From Hyphomicrobiales bacterium (GTDB taxonomy: Bacteria; Pseudomonadota; Alphaproteobacteria; Rhizobiales; JAJFHB01): a stretch of DNA of 64,000 bases. The stretch's first letter is position 1, and every line of letters starts with the position of its first letter. Shown here piece after piece: positions 28,273 to 34,248 of the stretch. Under the pieces are notes generated by a model. That model was not told where the DNA came from. It did no database searches and saw nothing but the letters and a program-made list of their open reading frames with translations. The stretch covers positions 1 through 64,000 of the forward strand of contig JAJFHE010000045.1 in NCBI GenBank assembly GCA_021775755.1, given 5' to 3'. Made by a program: the position numbers and the translations under genes.

Positions 28273-29391
28273 ATGACAGGCATGGAAATAACTGAAGTCC
28301 GCGTTTATCAGGTAGACCTGCCTTTGAAGGAGGGCCGCTACTCCTGGGCCGATGGCAAGTTCGTCGATGCTTTCGACTGCACGGTGGTGGTGGTCGAAAC
28401 GGCCGGCGGTGCAAAGGGATACGGTGAGGTCTGCCCGCTTGGCCCGTTTTATCTGCCGGCATTCGGCAAAGGCGCGCGTGCGGGAATGGCGGAGGTCGTG
28501 CCGCATCTCCTCGGCCTCGATGCAACGGAACTTGGATGCGTGAACCTTGCAATGGACCGCGCCCTGCTTGGCCACCCTTATGTGAAGTCGGCTCTCGACA
28601 TGGCCTGCTGGGATCTGGCGGGCAAGCGTGCCGGCATGCCCGTATGCGATCTGTTGGGGGGCCGCCACGGCACAGCCGTTGCACTCTACCGCGCTATTTC
28701 ACAGGAGGCGCCTGAACAAATGGCTGAGAAAATCGCCGGTTACCGCGACGAAGGCTACACGAAATTCCAACTGAAAGTCGGGGGTGATCCGGTTGACGAC
28801 GTTGCACGGATCCGGGCGTCGCGCAACGTGCTCGACCGGGGTGAGATTCTCGTCGCGGATGCAAACACCGGCTGGCTGATGCACGAGGCGGCGCGGGTGT
28901 GCGACGCGGTTTCCGATGTCGATGTCTATATAGAACAGCCATGCAGGACCTATGAGGAATGCCTGACCATCCGCCGCCGCACCGCACGGCCTTTCGTGCT
29001 CGATGAAAATGTCGATGGCCTGCACATGCTGCTGCGGGCCCATGGCGACGGCGCCATGGATGTTATCAACCTGAAGATTTCAAAGGTTGGAGGGCTGACC
29101 AAAGCACGCCAGATCCGCGATCTTTGCGTCGAACTGGGCGTCGCCATGACAATCGAGGACAGCTGGGGAGGCGATATCATTACGGCGGCGATTGCGCACC
29201 TTGCGCACTCAACGCCTGAACGGCTACGGTTTTCCTCCACCGATTTCAACAGCTACGTCACCGTCGACACCGCAAGCGGTGCGCCGCAGCGCGATCGCGG
29301 ATACATGAGCGCGGGGACGGCGCCGGGGCTCGGCGTCGAAGTTGACGAAAACGCATTGGGAGCCCCAGAAGCGGTATACACGGCGGCCTAG
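28273..29391 (+). CDS. Enolase superfamily (mandelate racemase / muconate lactonizing group) enzyme
   Basis: 372 residues. The N-terminal capping domain (1-130) is followed by a TIM barrel. Likely metal ligands are Asp in VADANTGW, Glu in YIEQPC and Asp/Glu in VLDENVDG. The catalytic lysines are in FQLKVGGD and NLKISKVGG, and the active-site loop is [12 protein letters not shown]. The DSWGGD/QxK pattern recalls hydroxyproline-betaine 2-epimerase and cis-3-hydroxyproline dehydratase relatives, but I cannot fix the substrate. Its stop codon lies inside a 14-bp palindrome. A paralogue-like gene lies 1.9 kb downstream. Confidence 0.85.
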
Positions 29392-29415
29392 GTCATGACC
29401 TAGTTCATGACCTAG
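29389..29415. promoter_or_regulatory. Palindrome and tandem repeat, candidate operator before the histidine kinase
   Basis: TAGGTCATGACCTA at 29389-29402 is a perfect 14-bp palindrome. Its right part is repeated immediately: GTCATGACCTAG (29392-29403) and TTCATGACCTAG (29404-29415). It starts in the stop codon of the upstream enzyme gene and is 45 bases before the kinase start. It may be an operator; the protein is unknown. Confidence 0.5.
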
Positions 29416-29460
29416 CGGCGCAGGCGCGCCGCGCGGCCGCAATCCATAGAGCCTGACACA

Positions 29461-31104
29461 ATGACAATCTGTGATCCGGAACGATTATCGAAGCTTCAAA
29501 GTTACCAGATCCTGGATACGCCGCCTGATGAGCGGTTTGATCGGATTGCCAGGCTGGTCGCCCGGTCTTTCACAGTCCCGATGGTTGGAATTTCCTTCGT
29601 CGACAGGCGCCGGGTCTGGTTCAAGTCAACGATAGGATTCGACGTGCGTCAGGTGCCGCTCGATCAGTTCCACTGCTCACAGGTCGTCGCGGAAGACCGG
29701 TTTCTCGAAATCTCCGATGGCGTCTCACCGCCGGTGGTCTCACACAGTCCTTCCGGCGGCCTGCCCGCGACCCGGTTTTATGCCGGCGCGCCGCTGCGCA
29801 CGAACGATGGCTTCGTGCTCGGATCGATTTGTATTTTTGACGAGAAATTCCGCCGCCTGCGGCCGTCCGAGCGGCATAGCCTTGAGAGCATGGCTGACTT
29901 TGTTGTCGACGAACTGGAACAGTTCAAGTCGCTGCAGCGCAATCAGGTCGAAACGGAAGTTCTCAAGTCGAGCGAGCGTCATTTCCGCGAATTGCTTGAT
30001 ATTGCGCCGATTCTTGTGTGGATGACGGATGCGGTCTGGCAAAGTGTGTATTTCAACACGAACTGGCTGAATTTCACTGGCCGATCTCTGGTGGAGGAAC
30101 TTGGCAGCGGGTGGGAGCGCGGCCTCCACAGGGACGATATCAAACGGTGCCACGAGACCTTTACCGAATCGACTCAAAACCGCAACGTCTACTCAATCGA
30201 GTACCGGTTGCGGCGCCACGACGGCGAGTATCGTTGGCTGCTTGAATCCGGCCGGCCGCGCTTTGACGCCGATGATGCATTTCTTGGATGCGTCGGCGGC
30301 GCGGTCGACATTACCGACCTCAAGGTTGCCGAAGCCAGGCTCGAGGCGCGTACGCGTGAGCTGGAGAGATCCAACAGTGCACTTGAGCAATTTGCCTCCG
30401 TTGCGGCCCATGACCTCAAGGCGCCGCTGCGCCATATCGTTGCGTTCAGTGAGATTCTCAAAACGGAGTACGGGGAAACGCTCGATGAGCAGGGGCGGCT
30501 CTGCGTCGAGCAGATGGCTGCGGCGTCGCTTCGTATGCGCAACATGGTCTCGAGCCTCCTGGAACTCTCACGCATTTCGCTTGCTTCGAACGAAAGCGGA
30601 TTTGCCGCAACGTCACTGGTGGACGTCATTTCGCGCGCACATGCGAATGTCGGCCTTGCCGCGCTGGATGTGCATCACGGCGACCTGCCCGAGGTTTATG
30701 GGGCTCGTTCGCTGCTCATTCAGCTGTTTCACAACCTATTCGACAATGCGGTGAAATATGCCGTGGATACAAAGGCCGATGTAACGGTCGAGGCGAGCAT
30801 GACAGAAGACACCGTCGAAGTTTCAGTTTCCGACAAAGGACCTGGAATCGATGCCGAAAACGCCGATCTGATATTTCAACTGTTCAAACGTCTGGCAAAC
30901 AAGGCGGAAGTTTCCGGCTCCGGCATCGGGCTTGCGCTGTGCTCCAGGATAATCGCGCTGCATGGTGGAAAGATCTGGCTCGACGACAGCTATAAAGGTG
31001 GTGCGCGGTTTCGATTTACACTGAATTCCCCCACTTCAGAACACATCCTGATGCAATGCGCTCCCGATGCGGTGGCAACGGGCGCTGGCGAGACGGATAG
31101 TTAA
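29461..31104 (+). CDS. GAF-PAS sensor histidine kinase
   Basis: 547 residues, with no membrane segment, so a soluble sensor. A GAF domain (about 20-155) is followed by a PAS domain (about 172-290, with the PAC part EYRLRRHDGEYRWLLESGRP) and HisKA with His317 in SVAAHDLKAPLRH. The HATPase domain has NLFDNAVKYA, DKGPGID and GSGIGLAL. It resembles bacteriophytochrome-type kinases without the phytochrome core. No response regulator is adjacent. It lies between two related enolase-superfamily enzymes, after a palindromic candidate operator. Confidence 0.93.
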   Translation: MTICDPERLSKLQSYQILDTPPDERFDRIARLVARSFTVPMVGISFVDRRRVWFKSTIGFDVRQVPLDQFHCSQVVAEDRFLEISDGVSPPVVSHSPSGGLPATRFYAGAPLRTNDGFVLGSICIFDEKFRRLRPSERHSLESMADFVVDELEQFKSLQRNQVETEVLKSSERHFRELLDIAPILVWMTDAVWQSVYFNTNWLNFTGRSLVEELGSGWERGLHRDDIKRCHETFTESTQNRNVYSIEYRLRRHDGEYRWLLESGRPRFDADDAFLGCVGGAVDITDLKVAEARLEARTRELERSNSALEQFASVAAHDLKAPLRHIVAFSEILKTEYGETLDEQGRLCVEQMAAASLRMRNMVSSLLELSRISLASNESGFAATSLVDVISRAHANVGLAALDVHHGDLPEVYGARSLLIQLFHNLFDNAVKYAVDTKADVTVEASMTEDTVEVSVSDKGPGIDAENADLIFQLFKRLANKAEVSGSGIGLALCSRIIALHGGKIWLDDSYKGGARFRFTLNSPTSEHILMQCAPDAVATGAGETDS

Positions 31105-31241
31105 ACTCTTTGAATAATTTTCACTCACCCGGCGGTTGGAAGCTGACGTAGGGTGCTGCGTCCTGAAATTCGGTTCGGGATCGAACCGGCGTTGTTCGCC
31201 ACTGGCGGTGGCGCCGCGGCCTCGGCCCGGAGCGGAGCAAA

Positions 31242-32342
31242 ATGCACATCACGCGGATTTCCATTTTTCAGTGCGATCTGGACCTGAAGAAACCTTACTA
31301 CCTTTCAGGCGGCCGGCTGCGCTTCGACCGGCTCGACAGTACCGTTGTCGCCATCGAGACCGATGAGGGCCTGACCGGCTGGGGAGAGGGCTGTCCATGG
31401 GGTTCGACTTATCTGCCGGGTTTCGGCCGCGGCATTCGGGCAGGACTTGAGGAACTGGCGCCGCAACTGATCGGTCTCAATCCGCTTGTTCCCGACCACG
31501 TCAACCTGGTGCTGGATACAGCATTGCCGGGCCATCCCTACATCAAGTCCGCCGTTGATCTGGCCTGCTGGGACATTCTCGGCCAGCGCTCGGGCATGCC
31601 GGTTTGCGAGCTTCTTGGCGGGCGTTATGGCGATGCGGTTCCACTTGTCAGCTCGGTATCGACCGGCTCACCGGATGAAATGCTGCAAACGGTAAGAGAT
31701 TTCGCGTCGGACGGGTATTTCATGCATTCGGTGAAGGTCGGTGCCGACGTTGCCCTCGACATCGAACGCATCAGGTATCTCACAAGCAACACGCCGGCCA
31801 CCGAAATGCTGGTGTACGACGCCAATCGCGCCTGGCTGCCAAGCGAGGCAATCGCGGTGATGAATGGGGTGGCGGATTTGCAGGCGACCTTCGAGCAGCC
31901 CTGCGAAACCTACGAAGAATGCCTGCATGTCCGTCGTCTCACCACTTCGCCCATCAGCCTCGATGAGGTCATCAAGGAGTTCCACGATCTCGTGCGGCTG
32001 CAGGCGGATGGGGCGGCGGAGCTTGTCAATATCAAGATCGGCCGCGTCGGCGGATTGACCAAGGCCCGGCGCATGCGGGATTTCTGCATGGCGTTCGGCA
32101 TCCGCATGCTGATCATGGATACCGGCGGCAGCGTCATTTCGGACACGGCGGCGGCGCATTTGGCGCACGCGACACCGGAACGCTACCGGGTTGCGACATG
32201 GGATTGCGCGGCAATGCTGACCCGGGCCACTGCAACAGGGGCATTGGCCGACAACGGCGTGATCCGGGCACCGCTCGATCCGGGGCTGGGCGTGGCTCCG
32301 ATTGCCGACGAACTTGGCGAGCCGATCGCCGTCTACCAGTAG
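31242..32342 (+). CDS. Enolase superfamily enzyme, cis-3-hydroxy-L-proline dehydratase-like
   Basis: 366 residues. The start KPYYLSGGRLRFDRLDST and GWGEGCPWGSTYLPGFG match my memory of cis-3-hydroxy-L-proline dehydratases, which make 1-pyrroline-2-carboxylate. Metal ligands are likely Asp in VYDANRAW, Glu in TFEQPC and Asp/Glu in SLDEVIKE. The catalytic lysines are in HSVKVGAD and NIKIGRVGG. GGAG precedes the ATG. It shares many short blocks with the gene at 28273-29391 and is probably an older paralogue. Substrate identity is inferred by resemblance only. Confidence 0.85.
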   Translation: MHITRISIFQCDLDLKKPYYLSGGRLRFDRLDSTVVAIETDEGLTGWGEGCPWGSTYLPGFGRGIRAGLEELAPQLIGLNPLVPDHVNLVLDTALPGHPYIKSAVDLACWDILGQRSGMPVCELLGGRYGDAVPLVSSVSTGSPDEMLQTVRDFASDGYFMHSVKVGADVALDIERIRYLTSNTPATEMLVYDANRAWLPSEAIAVMNGVADLQATFEQPCETYEECLHVRRLTTSPISLDEVIKEFHDLVRLQADGAAELVNIKIGRVGGLTKARRMRDFCMAFGIRMLIMDTGGSVISDTAAAHLAHATPERYRVATWDCAAMLTRATATGALADNGVIRAPLDPGLGVAPIADELGEPIAVYQ

Positions 32343-32389: not shown

Positions 32390-32938
32390 CTAGTTGCGCG
32401 GCGGTACGACACGGCCCTTCCGCATGATCTCTTCGACAGTTGGAAAATTGACCTGTGCGGCAGGCGGCACGTCTGTCCACGGCGGAACCGGTTTGAAGCT
32501 CTTGAAGTAGTCGAAGGGCCGTACACCCGGACCGGTGGGGGTATCGACGACAATACGCCCGACCATCCCGGCATGTTCGTGCGGTGCGCAGTAGTAGTCG
32601 TAAACACCGGGCACCGTGAGAACGACGCTGAACCGGTCGCCTGGTTCAACAAGGTAACCGCTGTCCCATGGCTGTGCGGTTTTGGGGATGCGCAGGCTGT
32701 GATCATCATTATCTGGATGGTAAGCCGTCGCCGTGTGTACGTTTTGCCTTGTCGTCCATCGGATGGCGGTTCCGGCCTCAACCCGCAACCCAATAGGATC
32801 GAACCAGACTTTTGATCCATTCACGTCGCCGCGCATTTCAATGTCCACTACCGGCGCCCCGGCCCTTGCGAGAGCAGGCAGTGCGAGGCCGGCGAGCCAA
32901 AACCCGCCGGCACTCAATAAAGATCTTCGACTTGCCAT
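32390..32938 (-). CDS. Tat-exported cupredoxin (plastocyanin/azurin-like) protein
   Basis: 182 residues. The N terminus SRRSLLSAGGFWLAGLALP is Tat-like. The cupredoxin fold (about 30-135) has a probable type-1 copper site: His68 in QNVHTATAY, Cys117, His120 and Met125 in YYCAPHEHAGMVG. This pattern (C-x2-H-x4-M) fits pseudoazurin/plastocyanin-type proteins. A 45-residue tail follows, ending RKGRVVPPRN. Its start overlaps the stop of the preceding secreted-protein gene by 1 base (TAATG), so they are co-translated. It probably transfers electrons in the periplasm. Confidence 0.85.
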   Translation of the reverse strand: MASRRSLLSAGGFWLAGLALPALARAGAPVVDIEMRGDVNGSKVWFDPIGLRVEAGTAIRWTTRQNVHTATAYHPDNDDHSLRIPKTAQPWDSGYLVEPGDRFSVVLTVPGVYDYYCAPHEHAGMVGRIVVDTPTGPGVRPFDYFKSFKPVPPWTDVPPAAQVNFPTVEEIMRKGRVVPPRN

Positions 32939-33360
32939 TACTGCAGGTCGGCCCCGGCGGGATCGATATGCCAGACCACAACGTGGTAGTGGGGCATTGC
33001 TACGCCGGGGTGCCCGGCATTGTAATACATGTCGACCGAATGGGCGTTGGAACCCGCAACGCCTAGTCCGGCAAACTCTTTCTGGGCATTCATGTCCGCA
33101 AGAGGGATCATATAAATTGTGCTGACGAGCTTGCCGGTCTTGTCATAGGCCGCGAAAGGACCGGCTGGAAGCGTCGACGGGTCAACATACAGACTGCCCA
33201 GTCCCGGGATGTGGATCGGAAGAGCGACGAGATCGCTAACCGCTTGATAGTCTCCGCCCGGCGGGGACATCGGGGCGGCATTGTCTGCCTGAACAGGTGA
33301 CCGGGCCATTGCCAGTAACACCAGGGCCATGACGGCGGCCAATGTAGTTTTTTTCATCAT
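32938..33360 (-). CDS. Small secreted protein, TTHB210/DUF5602-like
   Basis: 140 residues with a Sec-type signal peptide (about 1-24, MMKKTTLAAVMALVLLAMA). The mature part contains DYQAVSDLVALPIHIPGLG, LVSTIYMIPLADM, SVDMYYNAGHPGVAMPHYHV and VVWHIDPAG. The GHPG...PHY pattern reminds me of TTHB210 of Thermus, which is controlled by an adjacent ECF sigma factor. An ECF sigma gene lies just upstream here as well. GGAGAAG precedes the start ATG. The function is unknown; the family call is tentative. Confidence 0.6.
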   Translation of the reverse strand: MMKKTTLAAVMALVLLAMARSPVQADNAAPMSPPGGDYQAVSDLVALPIHIPGLGSLYVDPSTLPAGPFAAYDKTGKLVSTIYMIPLADMNAQKEFAGLGVAGSNAHSVDMYYNAGHPGVAMPHYHVVVWHIDPAGADLQ

Positions 33361-33409
33361 TTTGCTTCTCCGTTGTCTGTGAAAGACGATGGCCGGAGAG
33401 CATGATCGA

Positions 33410-34147
33410 TCAGTGATGCTGTCTAGATGAGGGTATGCGAACTCCTTTTTGAAGCCGGGCAATCACGGTACCCGTCGTTCGTGCGCAGCGGCTTCCTCCA
33501 AATGGAAATGCTTCCAGGGATGCCGCTGTGAGATGCTCTTCCAGACCAGCCCGCAGCGTTGCTTTAGCCCGGTGCAAACGGGACTTTACGGTTTCTGGCC
33601 GAATATTGAGCGCATTGGCCGTTTCCTCAACGGACATCTGTTCGATTGCGCGCATGACGAAAACCTCGCGGAATCCATCGCCAAGGCTGTCGATCTCGTG
33701 TTCCAGCAAGTTTCGGATGTCGCTTATGGCCGCCGTGGCTTCCGGTGTGATGTGATCGACGATCTCCGCCTGGGCAAAACTCGCGCCGGTTCGATCACCC
33801 ATTGGTCGGCTAGCGGCAGTCGCCACGTTACGCCGCTTAATCTGCCTGAGTTTGGACAGGGCGAGATTGACGGTAATCTTTGAGAGCCATGCCGTCATGC
33901 TGTCCGCCGTCCTCAGCGTTTGCAGTTGGGTGAACGCCTTTACAAAGGCATCCTGGACAACATCCTCCGCTTCCATGTCGTCGCGCACAATGCTGCGCGC
34001 GATGCGAAACAACCGCTGGTTATTCTGCTGCATGATTTCGGTGAGTTGGTCCGTGCGGCCGTGATGTGCTTCCTCAACCGCAACGGACAACCCCGAAACC
34101 AATTCTTGTCTTGAACTTTCCAAGGGTCGCATCACTGACCGTTTCAT
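33410..34147 (-). CDS. ECF-type RNA polymerase sigma factor
   Basis: Up to 245 residues. Region 2 includes NQRLFRIARSIVRDDMEAED and VVQDAFVKAFTQLQ. Region 4 includes GFREVFVMRAIEQMSVEETA and PETVKSRLHRAKATLR. It therefore redirects RNA polymerase to a small set of promoters. The start is uncertain: the longest frame adds about 35 residues before region 2, and a Met at MQQNNQRLF is also possible. No anti-sigma gene is adjacent. A matching ECF-type promoter lies just upstream (listed). It heads the run with the secreted protein and cupredoxin. Confidence 0.92.
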   Translation of the reverse strand: MKRSVMRPLESSRQELVSGLSVAVEEAHHGRTDQLTEIMQQNNQRLFRIARSIVRDDMEAEDVVQDAFVKAFTQLQTLRTADSMTAWLSKITVNLALSKLRQIKRRNVATAASRPMGDRTGASFAQAEIVDHITPEATAAISDIRNLLEHEIDSLGDGFREVFVMRAIEQMSVEETANALNIRPETVKSRLHRAKATLRAGLEEHLTAASLEAFPFGGSRCARTTGTVIARLQKGVRIPSSRQHH

Positions 34148-34170
34148 GTCTCAGGTTCATCGACAACATA

Positions 34171-34198
34171 TAGACGCCCGCAGCGACGAAAAGGTTCC
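34171..34198 (-). promoter_or_regulatory. ECF-type (sigma-E-like) promoter upstream of the sigma gene
   Basis: On the minus strand GGAAC is followed after 17 bases by CGTCTA, close to the GGAACTT/GTCTAA pattern of sigma-E-class promoters. The -10 ends 24 bases before the longest start of the sigma gene. It suggests autoregulation, a common ECF trait. I found no second copy before the secreted-protein gene. Confidence 0.6.
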
Positions 34199-34248
34199 CG
34201 AAAAAACTTCGTGACCGGTCAAAAGATTTCTTATGATCCTGAAGCGGT

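Follow-up and report, generated by a model that had tools for sequence, protein, structure and literature searches.

A predicted autoregulated ECF29-like sigma factor operon with an exported TTHB210-like protein and a cupredoxin in a Hyphomicrobiales bacterium

The 64,000-nt stretch of Hyphomicrobiales DNA analysed here (the window) contains a three-gene operon on its minus strand that encodes an ECF sigma factor, an exported TTHB210-like protein and a Tat-type cupredoxin, with coordinates that agree with those of the original prediction (Table 1). Our comparison of related loci showed that the promoter is conserved, that it is tied to the sigma factor gene and moves with gene order, and that no neighbouring gene family recurs. 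The reading that we favour, and consider probable, is that of an autoregulated ECF29-like operon in which the exported pair is the output and the sigma factor is gated by its own C-terminal extension. The operon is a variant of an already known, little-studied kind. By eye, an sdhB-like gene that closes a succinate dehydrogenase operon flanks it on one side and an enolase-superfamily-like gene on the other; a GAF/PAS-type histidine kinase-like gene lies between two such enolase-superfamily-like genes at 28273-32342. The cupredoxin gene overlaps the TTHB210-like gene by 1 nt (TAATG). An Rfam search returned no matches, and a scan for sigma-70 promoters and terminators gave scores at or below the shuffle level.

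Table 1. Features of the predicted operon in the window
Feature	Position	Strand	Remarks
Predicted autoregulatory promoter	34171..34199	-	-35 GGGAACCTTTT, 12 nt, -10 CGTCTA; no second exact match genome-wide
ECF sigma factor, ECF29-like (NCBIfam PRK11922)	33410..34132	-	ORF open from 34147; likely ATG 34132
C-terminal extension of the sigma factor, FPFxGxRC, residues 212-234 of P0001	33446..33514	-	Invariant Cys221, codon 33487-33485
Exported TTHB210-like protein	32938..33360	-	PDB 3vg8 by sequence and fold; motif conservation, 54 rows
Exported type-1 cupredoxin (plastocyanin/azurin family), twin-arginine N-terminus	32390..32938	-	Copper-bind; presumed ligands invariant, 36 rows

The sigma factor ORF matched the Pfam families Sigma70_r2 and r4_2, and its residues 24-234 aligned with positions 21-228 of the 231 positions of NCBIfam PRK11922 (NF008888) at 236.2 bits (cut-off 204). 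The ATG start given in Table 1 is the likely one because (T)CAGTGATGCGA is conserved in the relatives L046, L047, L048 and L053. RpoE8 of Sinorhizobium meliloti scored 326.5 bits against PRK11922 and was the sole match of the window sigma factor on pSymB at E 1e-5 in a tblastn search (E 6e-40, 42.3% identity). Carriers are few across the phylum, with 4 of 398 genomes matching at E 1e-20. Cultured genera that carry the operon include Microvirga, Nitratireductor and Azospirillum.

The original prediction had placed a promoter of the form GGAAC, 17 bases, CGTCTA before the sigma factor gene; this sequence is present exactly at 34198-34171 and is conserved before the sigma factor in relatives. The longer form, GGGAACCTTTT-N12-CGTCTA, is matched exactly nowhere else in the 5.47-Mb genome, the next three sites having 3 mismatches each. 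A search of the genome for further GGAAC-N17-CGTCTA sites, which had also been proposed, found two exact sites in all; we rejected the second (L002) as a regulon member because an open frame of 677 codons on the same strand encloses it, and it is not promoter-like. Two more sites in the same genome (L162 and L174) both fell within long open frames and were likewise set aside; the scan concerned gave 3 matches in total versus 2 for its backward control. GGAAC -35 elements are shared by many ECF groups, and with up to one mismatch the motif has 64 sites in the genome. Both facts would suit a chance or general motif that is untied to the sigma factor, although the backward control gives 182 sites at the same tolerance, and the comparison among relatives spoke against such a motif.

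To examine the promoter without relying on the predicted pattern, relatives were collected through the middle protein (the best 80 of 273 loci in named genomes) and supplemented with 14 order-level matches from 13 of 297 genomes, with plasmid loci, and with 27 regions around relatives of the sigma factor, which was found in 29 of 297 genomes at E 1e-25; after 10 duplicates had been dropped, 116 loci remained. In 71 of the 77 deduplicated sigma loci the first gene was preceded by the motif, versus 1 of the 38 loci without an adjacent sigma factor; many of these rows are related and are not independent events, and the Fisher value of 2.4e-18 overstates the certainty. None of 195 scrambled decoy motifs occurred in more than 5 of the 77 sigma loci, the opposite strand gave 1/77, and random 280-base windows contained the motif in 161 of 5150 cases. 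Among the 6-mers ahead of the first gene, GGGAAC itself was the most frequent (70/77 sigma loci versus 2/38 without sigma). Where the sigma factor was present, the motif was found with TTHB210-like partners (47/52), with DUF4142 partners (20/21) and with lone sigma factors (4/4); where it was absent, the counts were 1/22 for TTHB210 loci and 0/15 for loci with a histidine kinase. The five sigma-TTHB210 loci that lack the motif are L040, L071, L075, L082 and L090, and near versions could be recognized by eye in L040 and L075.

The position of the motif also followed gene order. In sigma-first operons it preceded the sigma factor gene in 17 of 17 cases and the TTHB210-like and cupredoxin genes in none (0/17 each), whereas in operons that begin with the TTHB210-like gene and end with the sigma factor gene it preceded the TTHB210-like gene in 23 of 25 cases, the sigma factor gene in 6 and the cupredoxin gene in 1. 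A motif that occurred by chance or served some general purpose is thus strongly disfavoured, and we give it hardly any weight. In each of two genomes (G105 and G228), a kinase-linked TTHB210/cupredoxin pair that lacks the motif coexists with a sigma-DUF4142 operon that has it, so that the promoter goes with the regulator and not with the partner proteins. L034, the only locus that has the motif but no adjacent sigma factor, resembles a trans target, since the sigma factor of its genome (G155) lies unlinked on another contig (C38). A motif that follows both the sigma factor and the gene order is the pattern expected of autoregulation, and, short of proof, the self-regulated operon of the original prediction appears to be the best reading of these comparative data. 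The sigma factor would then read GGGAACC-N-CGTC before its own gene and transcribe itself together with the TTHB210-like protein and the type-1 cupredoxin.

Several further sites were noted in the course of the survey. In L184 (G193), a perfect extra GGGAACCTTT-N-CATCCAA near position 1501 is followed by an open frame that starts with a twin-arginine sequence and is truncated-hemoglobin-like by eye; the site is a possible trans target of an ECF29-type sigma factor. In L164, L178 and L180 (G096, G011 and G155, all of one genus), a conserved GGAACCTTAT...CGTTTA near position 1501 lies upstream of a gene that is pyrD-like by eye and divergent from a secA-like gene; it could be either a trans target or another promoter. 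The lone sigma factor genes (L135-L138) belong to one genus; a pair of small membrane-protein-like genes precedes the sigma factor in L135 and L137, and L135-L137 have an extra copy of the motif approximately 930 bases upstream. The genome of the window itself has a second exported pair, DUF4142-like and amicyanin-like (L134, contig C76), with neither an adjacent sigma factor nor the motif; we rejected this second cupredoxin as a trans target because no match to GGAAC-N16-18-CGTC/CATC/CGTT was found across the locus.

The nearest described system is the S. meliloti operon of RpoE8 (SMb20592), SMb20593 and AmcY. RpoE8 belongs to group ECF29, and its start was mapped together with GGGAAC/GCATCCAA; the sections of PMC6180224 that we consulted place the blue copper protein AmcY nearby, give no known anti-sigma factor and call the control a mystery. 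The window operon shares with it a PRK11922 sigma factor without a linked anti-sigma factor, the GGGAAC -35 element, a C-terminal extension with the same Cys motif, and a cupredoxin in the operon. The two differ in the middle gene, which is TTHB210-like in the window and DUF4142-like in the RpoE8 operon (190 bits to a Rhizobium DUF4142 protein), and in the promoter, which has CGTCTA at a spacing of 17 in the window and GCATCCAA at 16 before RpoE8. The S. meliloti authors noted a second copy of the motif before SMb20593 (PMC6180224, same sections); this copy probably matters, since 17 of 18 sigma-DUF4142-amicyanin operons share the arrangement, with the motif before the sigma factor gene in 17/18 and before the DUF4142 gene in 17/18.

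In the sigma factor tree, the window sequence belongs to a separate branch of 13 rows (SH-aLRT 98). This branch uses CGTC or CGTT at a spacing of 17, whereas the other rows mostly have CATC at 16. The -35 element of the window promoter is the GGGAAC of ECF29, and no linked anti-sigma factor was found, as in that group, since no neighbour family exceeds 7 of 77 loci; the -10 element is CGTCTA at 17 instead of CATC at 16 as in GCATCCAA. We therefore call the sigma factor ECF29-like and not strictly ECF29. Residue 86 is A in 13/13 rows of the window branch versus T in 61/64 of the rest, and residue 95 is L in 12/13 versus E in 60/64; judging from these alignments, a link between the two residues and the -10 preference is possible, although two DUF4142 loci with CGTC (L142 and L143) fall outside the window branch.

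The middle protein (140 residues, with a Sec-type N-terminus) was said to resemble TTHB210, and both sequence and fold bear this out: phmmer matched PDB 3vg8 (TTHB210) with E 6.3e-22, and the only fold matches of the predicted model (pLDDT 84.4) with E under 0.001 were 8 chains of 3vg8. Its score against the Pfam family TTHB210-like (PF18197), 19.9 bits, is below the cut-off of 26.6, and the NCBIfam search gave no family for the protein; the records of relatives annotate it as DUF5602. An NxGHPGV..PHxH motif is invariant in its alignment, as are His117, His124 and His126. The third protein (182 residues) reached 48.4 bits against Copper-bind (PF00127; cut-off 21.2), and H68, C117, H120 and M125, which we take to be the copper ligands, are invariant in its alignment, with R4 and R5 nearly so; its description as a type-1 copper protein is thus borne out, with the His-Cys-His-Met set kept. 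The Sec and twin-arginine signal types of the two proteins were assigned by reading the sequences, without a signal-peptide program. Two exported products downstream of the sigma factor, as described at the outset for the window, are also a family-wide property, and the same holds for the predicted autoregulation, the type-1 copper protein, the resemblance to TTHB210 and the missing anti-sigma neighbour.

The original prediction had suggested the small secreted protein as the sensing partner of the sigma factor. A sensing or anti-sigma role would suit a protein that is found in every TTHB210-type operon counted, that adjoins the sigma factor in sigma-first ones, and whose Thermus counterpart neighbours a sigma/anti-sigma pair. 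However, its N-terminus is of the export type, and no other helix fit for a membrane anchor is predicted; DUF4142 replaces it in 21 of the 77 sigma loci, 4 loci consist of the sigma factor alone, and 37 loci were counted in which a TTHB210-like protein occurs without the window-type sigma factor. A histidine kinase match was found in 15 of these sigma-less loci, and in rhizobia a HisKA/HATPase kinase follows the pair; TTHB210-like/cupredoxin pairs without the sigma factor occur in Gemmatimonadota and other lineages as well. These findings turned us away from the suggestion, which we now regard as very improbable. Since the pair is found without the sigma factor and with a kinase, it is a module used by several regulators, and the middle protein is most likely an output and not a sensor of the window sigma factor. 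The exported pair as a whole would then serve periplasmic redox or copper handling. On the sigma factor tree, the exchange of TTHB210 for DUF4142 needs 3 label changes, but the starred branches force only 1 for DUF4142; two independent swaps are thus no more than a suggestion. In a plasmid of Thioclava (L128, 3117-5262), two IS6 transposase genes surround the TTHB210-like gene, and the cupredoxin is reduced to a fragment.

The original prediction also linked the operon to an ECF sigma factor of Thermus. The resemblance to TTHB210 stood, and in the SigE system of Thermus thermophilus a TTHB210 homologue likewise adjoins an ECF sigma factor gene; the sigma factors themselves belong to different families. 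Thermus SigE scored 365.7 bits against PRK13919, a family that was not among the best 25 of 93 families for the window sigma factor. In strain HB8, TTHB210 is divergent from sigE, which is followed by a zinc-finger/RskA anti-sigma factor (TTHB212) and a ferritin-like gene, and, unlike in the window, no linked cupredoxin is annotated in the SigE locus. In L065 (4937-6965), an ECF sigma factor gene that is nearer to Thermus SigE than to the window sigma factor (82 versus 36 bits) lies before TTHB210-like and cupredoxin genes, perhaps as another regulator swap.

Neighbour clustering of the 77 sigma loci yielded no family that reached more than 7 loci, and by eye no anti-sigma factor could be recognized among the families, in agreement with the original statement that no anti-sigma gene is adjacent. 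An FPFxGxRC-type motif with Cys221 was present in 76 of 76 complete sigma factors, the 77th (L038) stopping at a contig end. The mean top-residue fraction of the extension was 0.60, versus 0.68 and 0.70 in regions 2 and 4 and 0.35 and 0.21 in the linker and the tail, respectively. Residues 219-234, which come after the long helix that ends region 4, are predicted to form a further helix, with a mean pLDDT of 96 for residues 221-230; the matched rows of the fold search mostly span residues 12-210, short of the extension. We propose the extension as the control element because it is the sole conserved feature left once no linked anti-sigma factor is found. It would gate activity within the sigma factor itself, and its invariant cysteine could act as a switch through thiol or metal chemistry, or could provide the contact with a partner encoded elsewhere. 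On conservation and the predicted model, the Cys221 extension appears to be the best candidate control element and the cysteine a putative switch. Within the sections available to us, PMC8999054 lists ECF29 among the groups with regulatory extensions, under the mechanism 'others'.

Two comparisons bear on this reading. CorE-type metal-responsive ECF sigma factors (ECF238) also have no anti-sigma factor and are controlled through a Cys-bearing C-terminal extension (PMC8999054, same sections), although a cysteine-rich domain and a linker with a CXC motif are described there for CorE, and the window sigma factor has one invariant Cys in a short helical extension; the likeness is one of working only. 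In the S. meliloti ECF26 system of RpoE1/RpoE4 (sulfite, SorT and the pseudoazurin Azu2), an ECF sigma factor likewise controls a blue copper protein (PMC3511301, in the part consulted), but the ECF26 factors have linked membrane anti-sigma factors and a GGAATA/GT promoter.

An anti-sigma factor might instead be encoded elsewhere, perhaps shared with other ECF factors, with the extension as its docking surface. The extension is indeed conserved like a surface, Thermus TTHB210 sits in a sigma system with an RskA-type anti-sigma factor, and our neighbour survey covered linked genes only; on the other side, no linked anti-sigma factor was seen in any arrangement, and none is known for ECF29 in the cited sections of PMC6180224. 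We consider this alternative rather unlikely. A serious rival of about the same modest weight dispenses with a gate at the protein level: another regulator would start transcription of the sigma factor, which would then amplify its own operon. PhaR (AniA) has a binding site ahead of S. meliloti rpoE8 (PMC12542648, in the part consulted), rpoE8 has a second mapped start without the motif (PMC6180224, same sections), and read-through is possible in the window, where the promoter starts approximately 50 nt past the stop codon of the same-strand sdhB-like gene. However, 126-fold overexpression of RpoE8 changed no target (PMC6180224, same sections), whereas a gate-free amplifier should have activated one. 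The overexpression result also counts against our own reading, as does the 2.6- to 3.2-fold rise of amcY in deletion mutants of S. meliloti (PMC6180224, same sections): the sigma factor may require an activating step, or the promoter may not be recognized in the way that we assume. The five sigma-TTHB210 loci that lack the motif, and the different -10 element and spacing of ECF29 members, weigh against it too. Gating by the extension of the sigma factor itself continues to be our preferred reading.

For ECF29-type sigma factors, the survey provides a promoter tied to the sigma factor gene and to its position across 77 loci. The comparison proposes a specific 23-residue candidate for ECF29-type control, with one invariant cysteine, in place of the presumed secreted sensor. 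It also indicates that two unrelated exported proteins can fill one slot beside a cupredoxin, and gives TTHB210, whose structure has been solved, a recurrent partner. In a more specific and decidedly speculative form of the proposal, the sigma factor would be its own sensor without an anti-sigma factor, the single invariant cysteine in its short C-terminal helix reading intracellular copper or thiol redox and thereby freeing the sigma factor for expression of itself and an exported pair. If this is true, the TTHB210-like/cupredoxin and DUF4142/amicyanin pairs would be two forms of a single periplasmic redox device, each able to stand in for the other, of which the former would also have been recruited by an unrelated histidine kinase.
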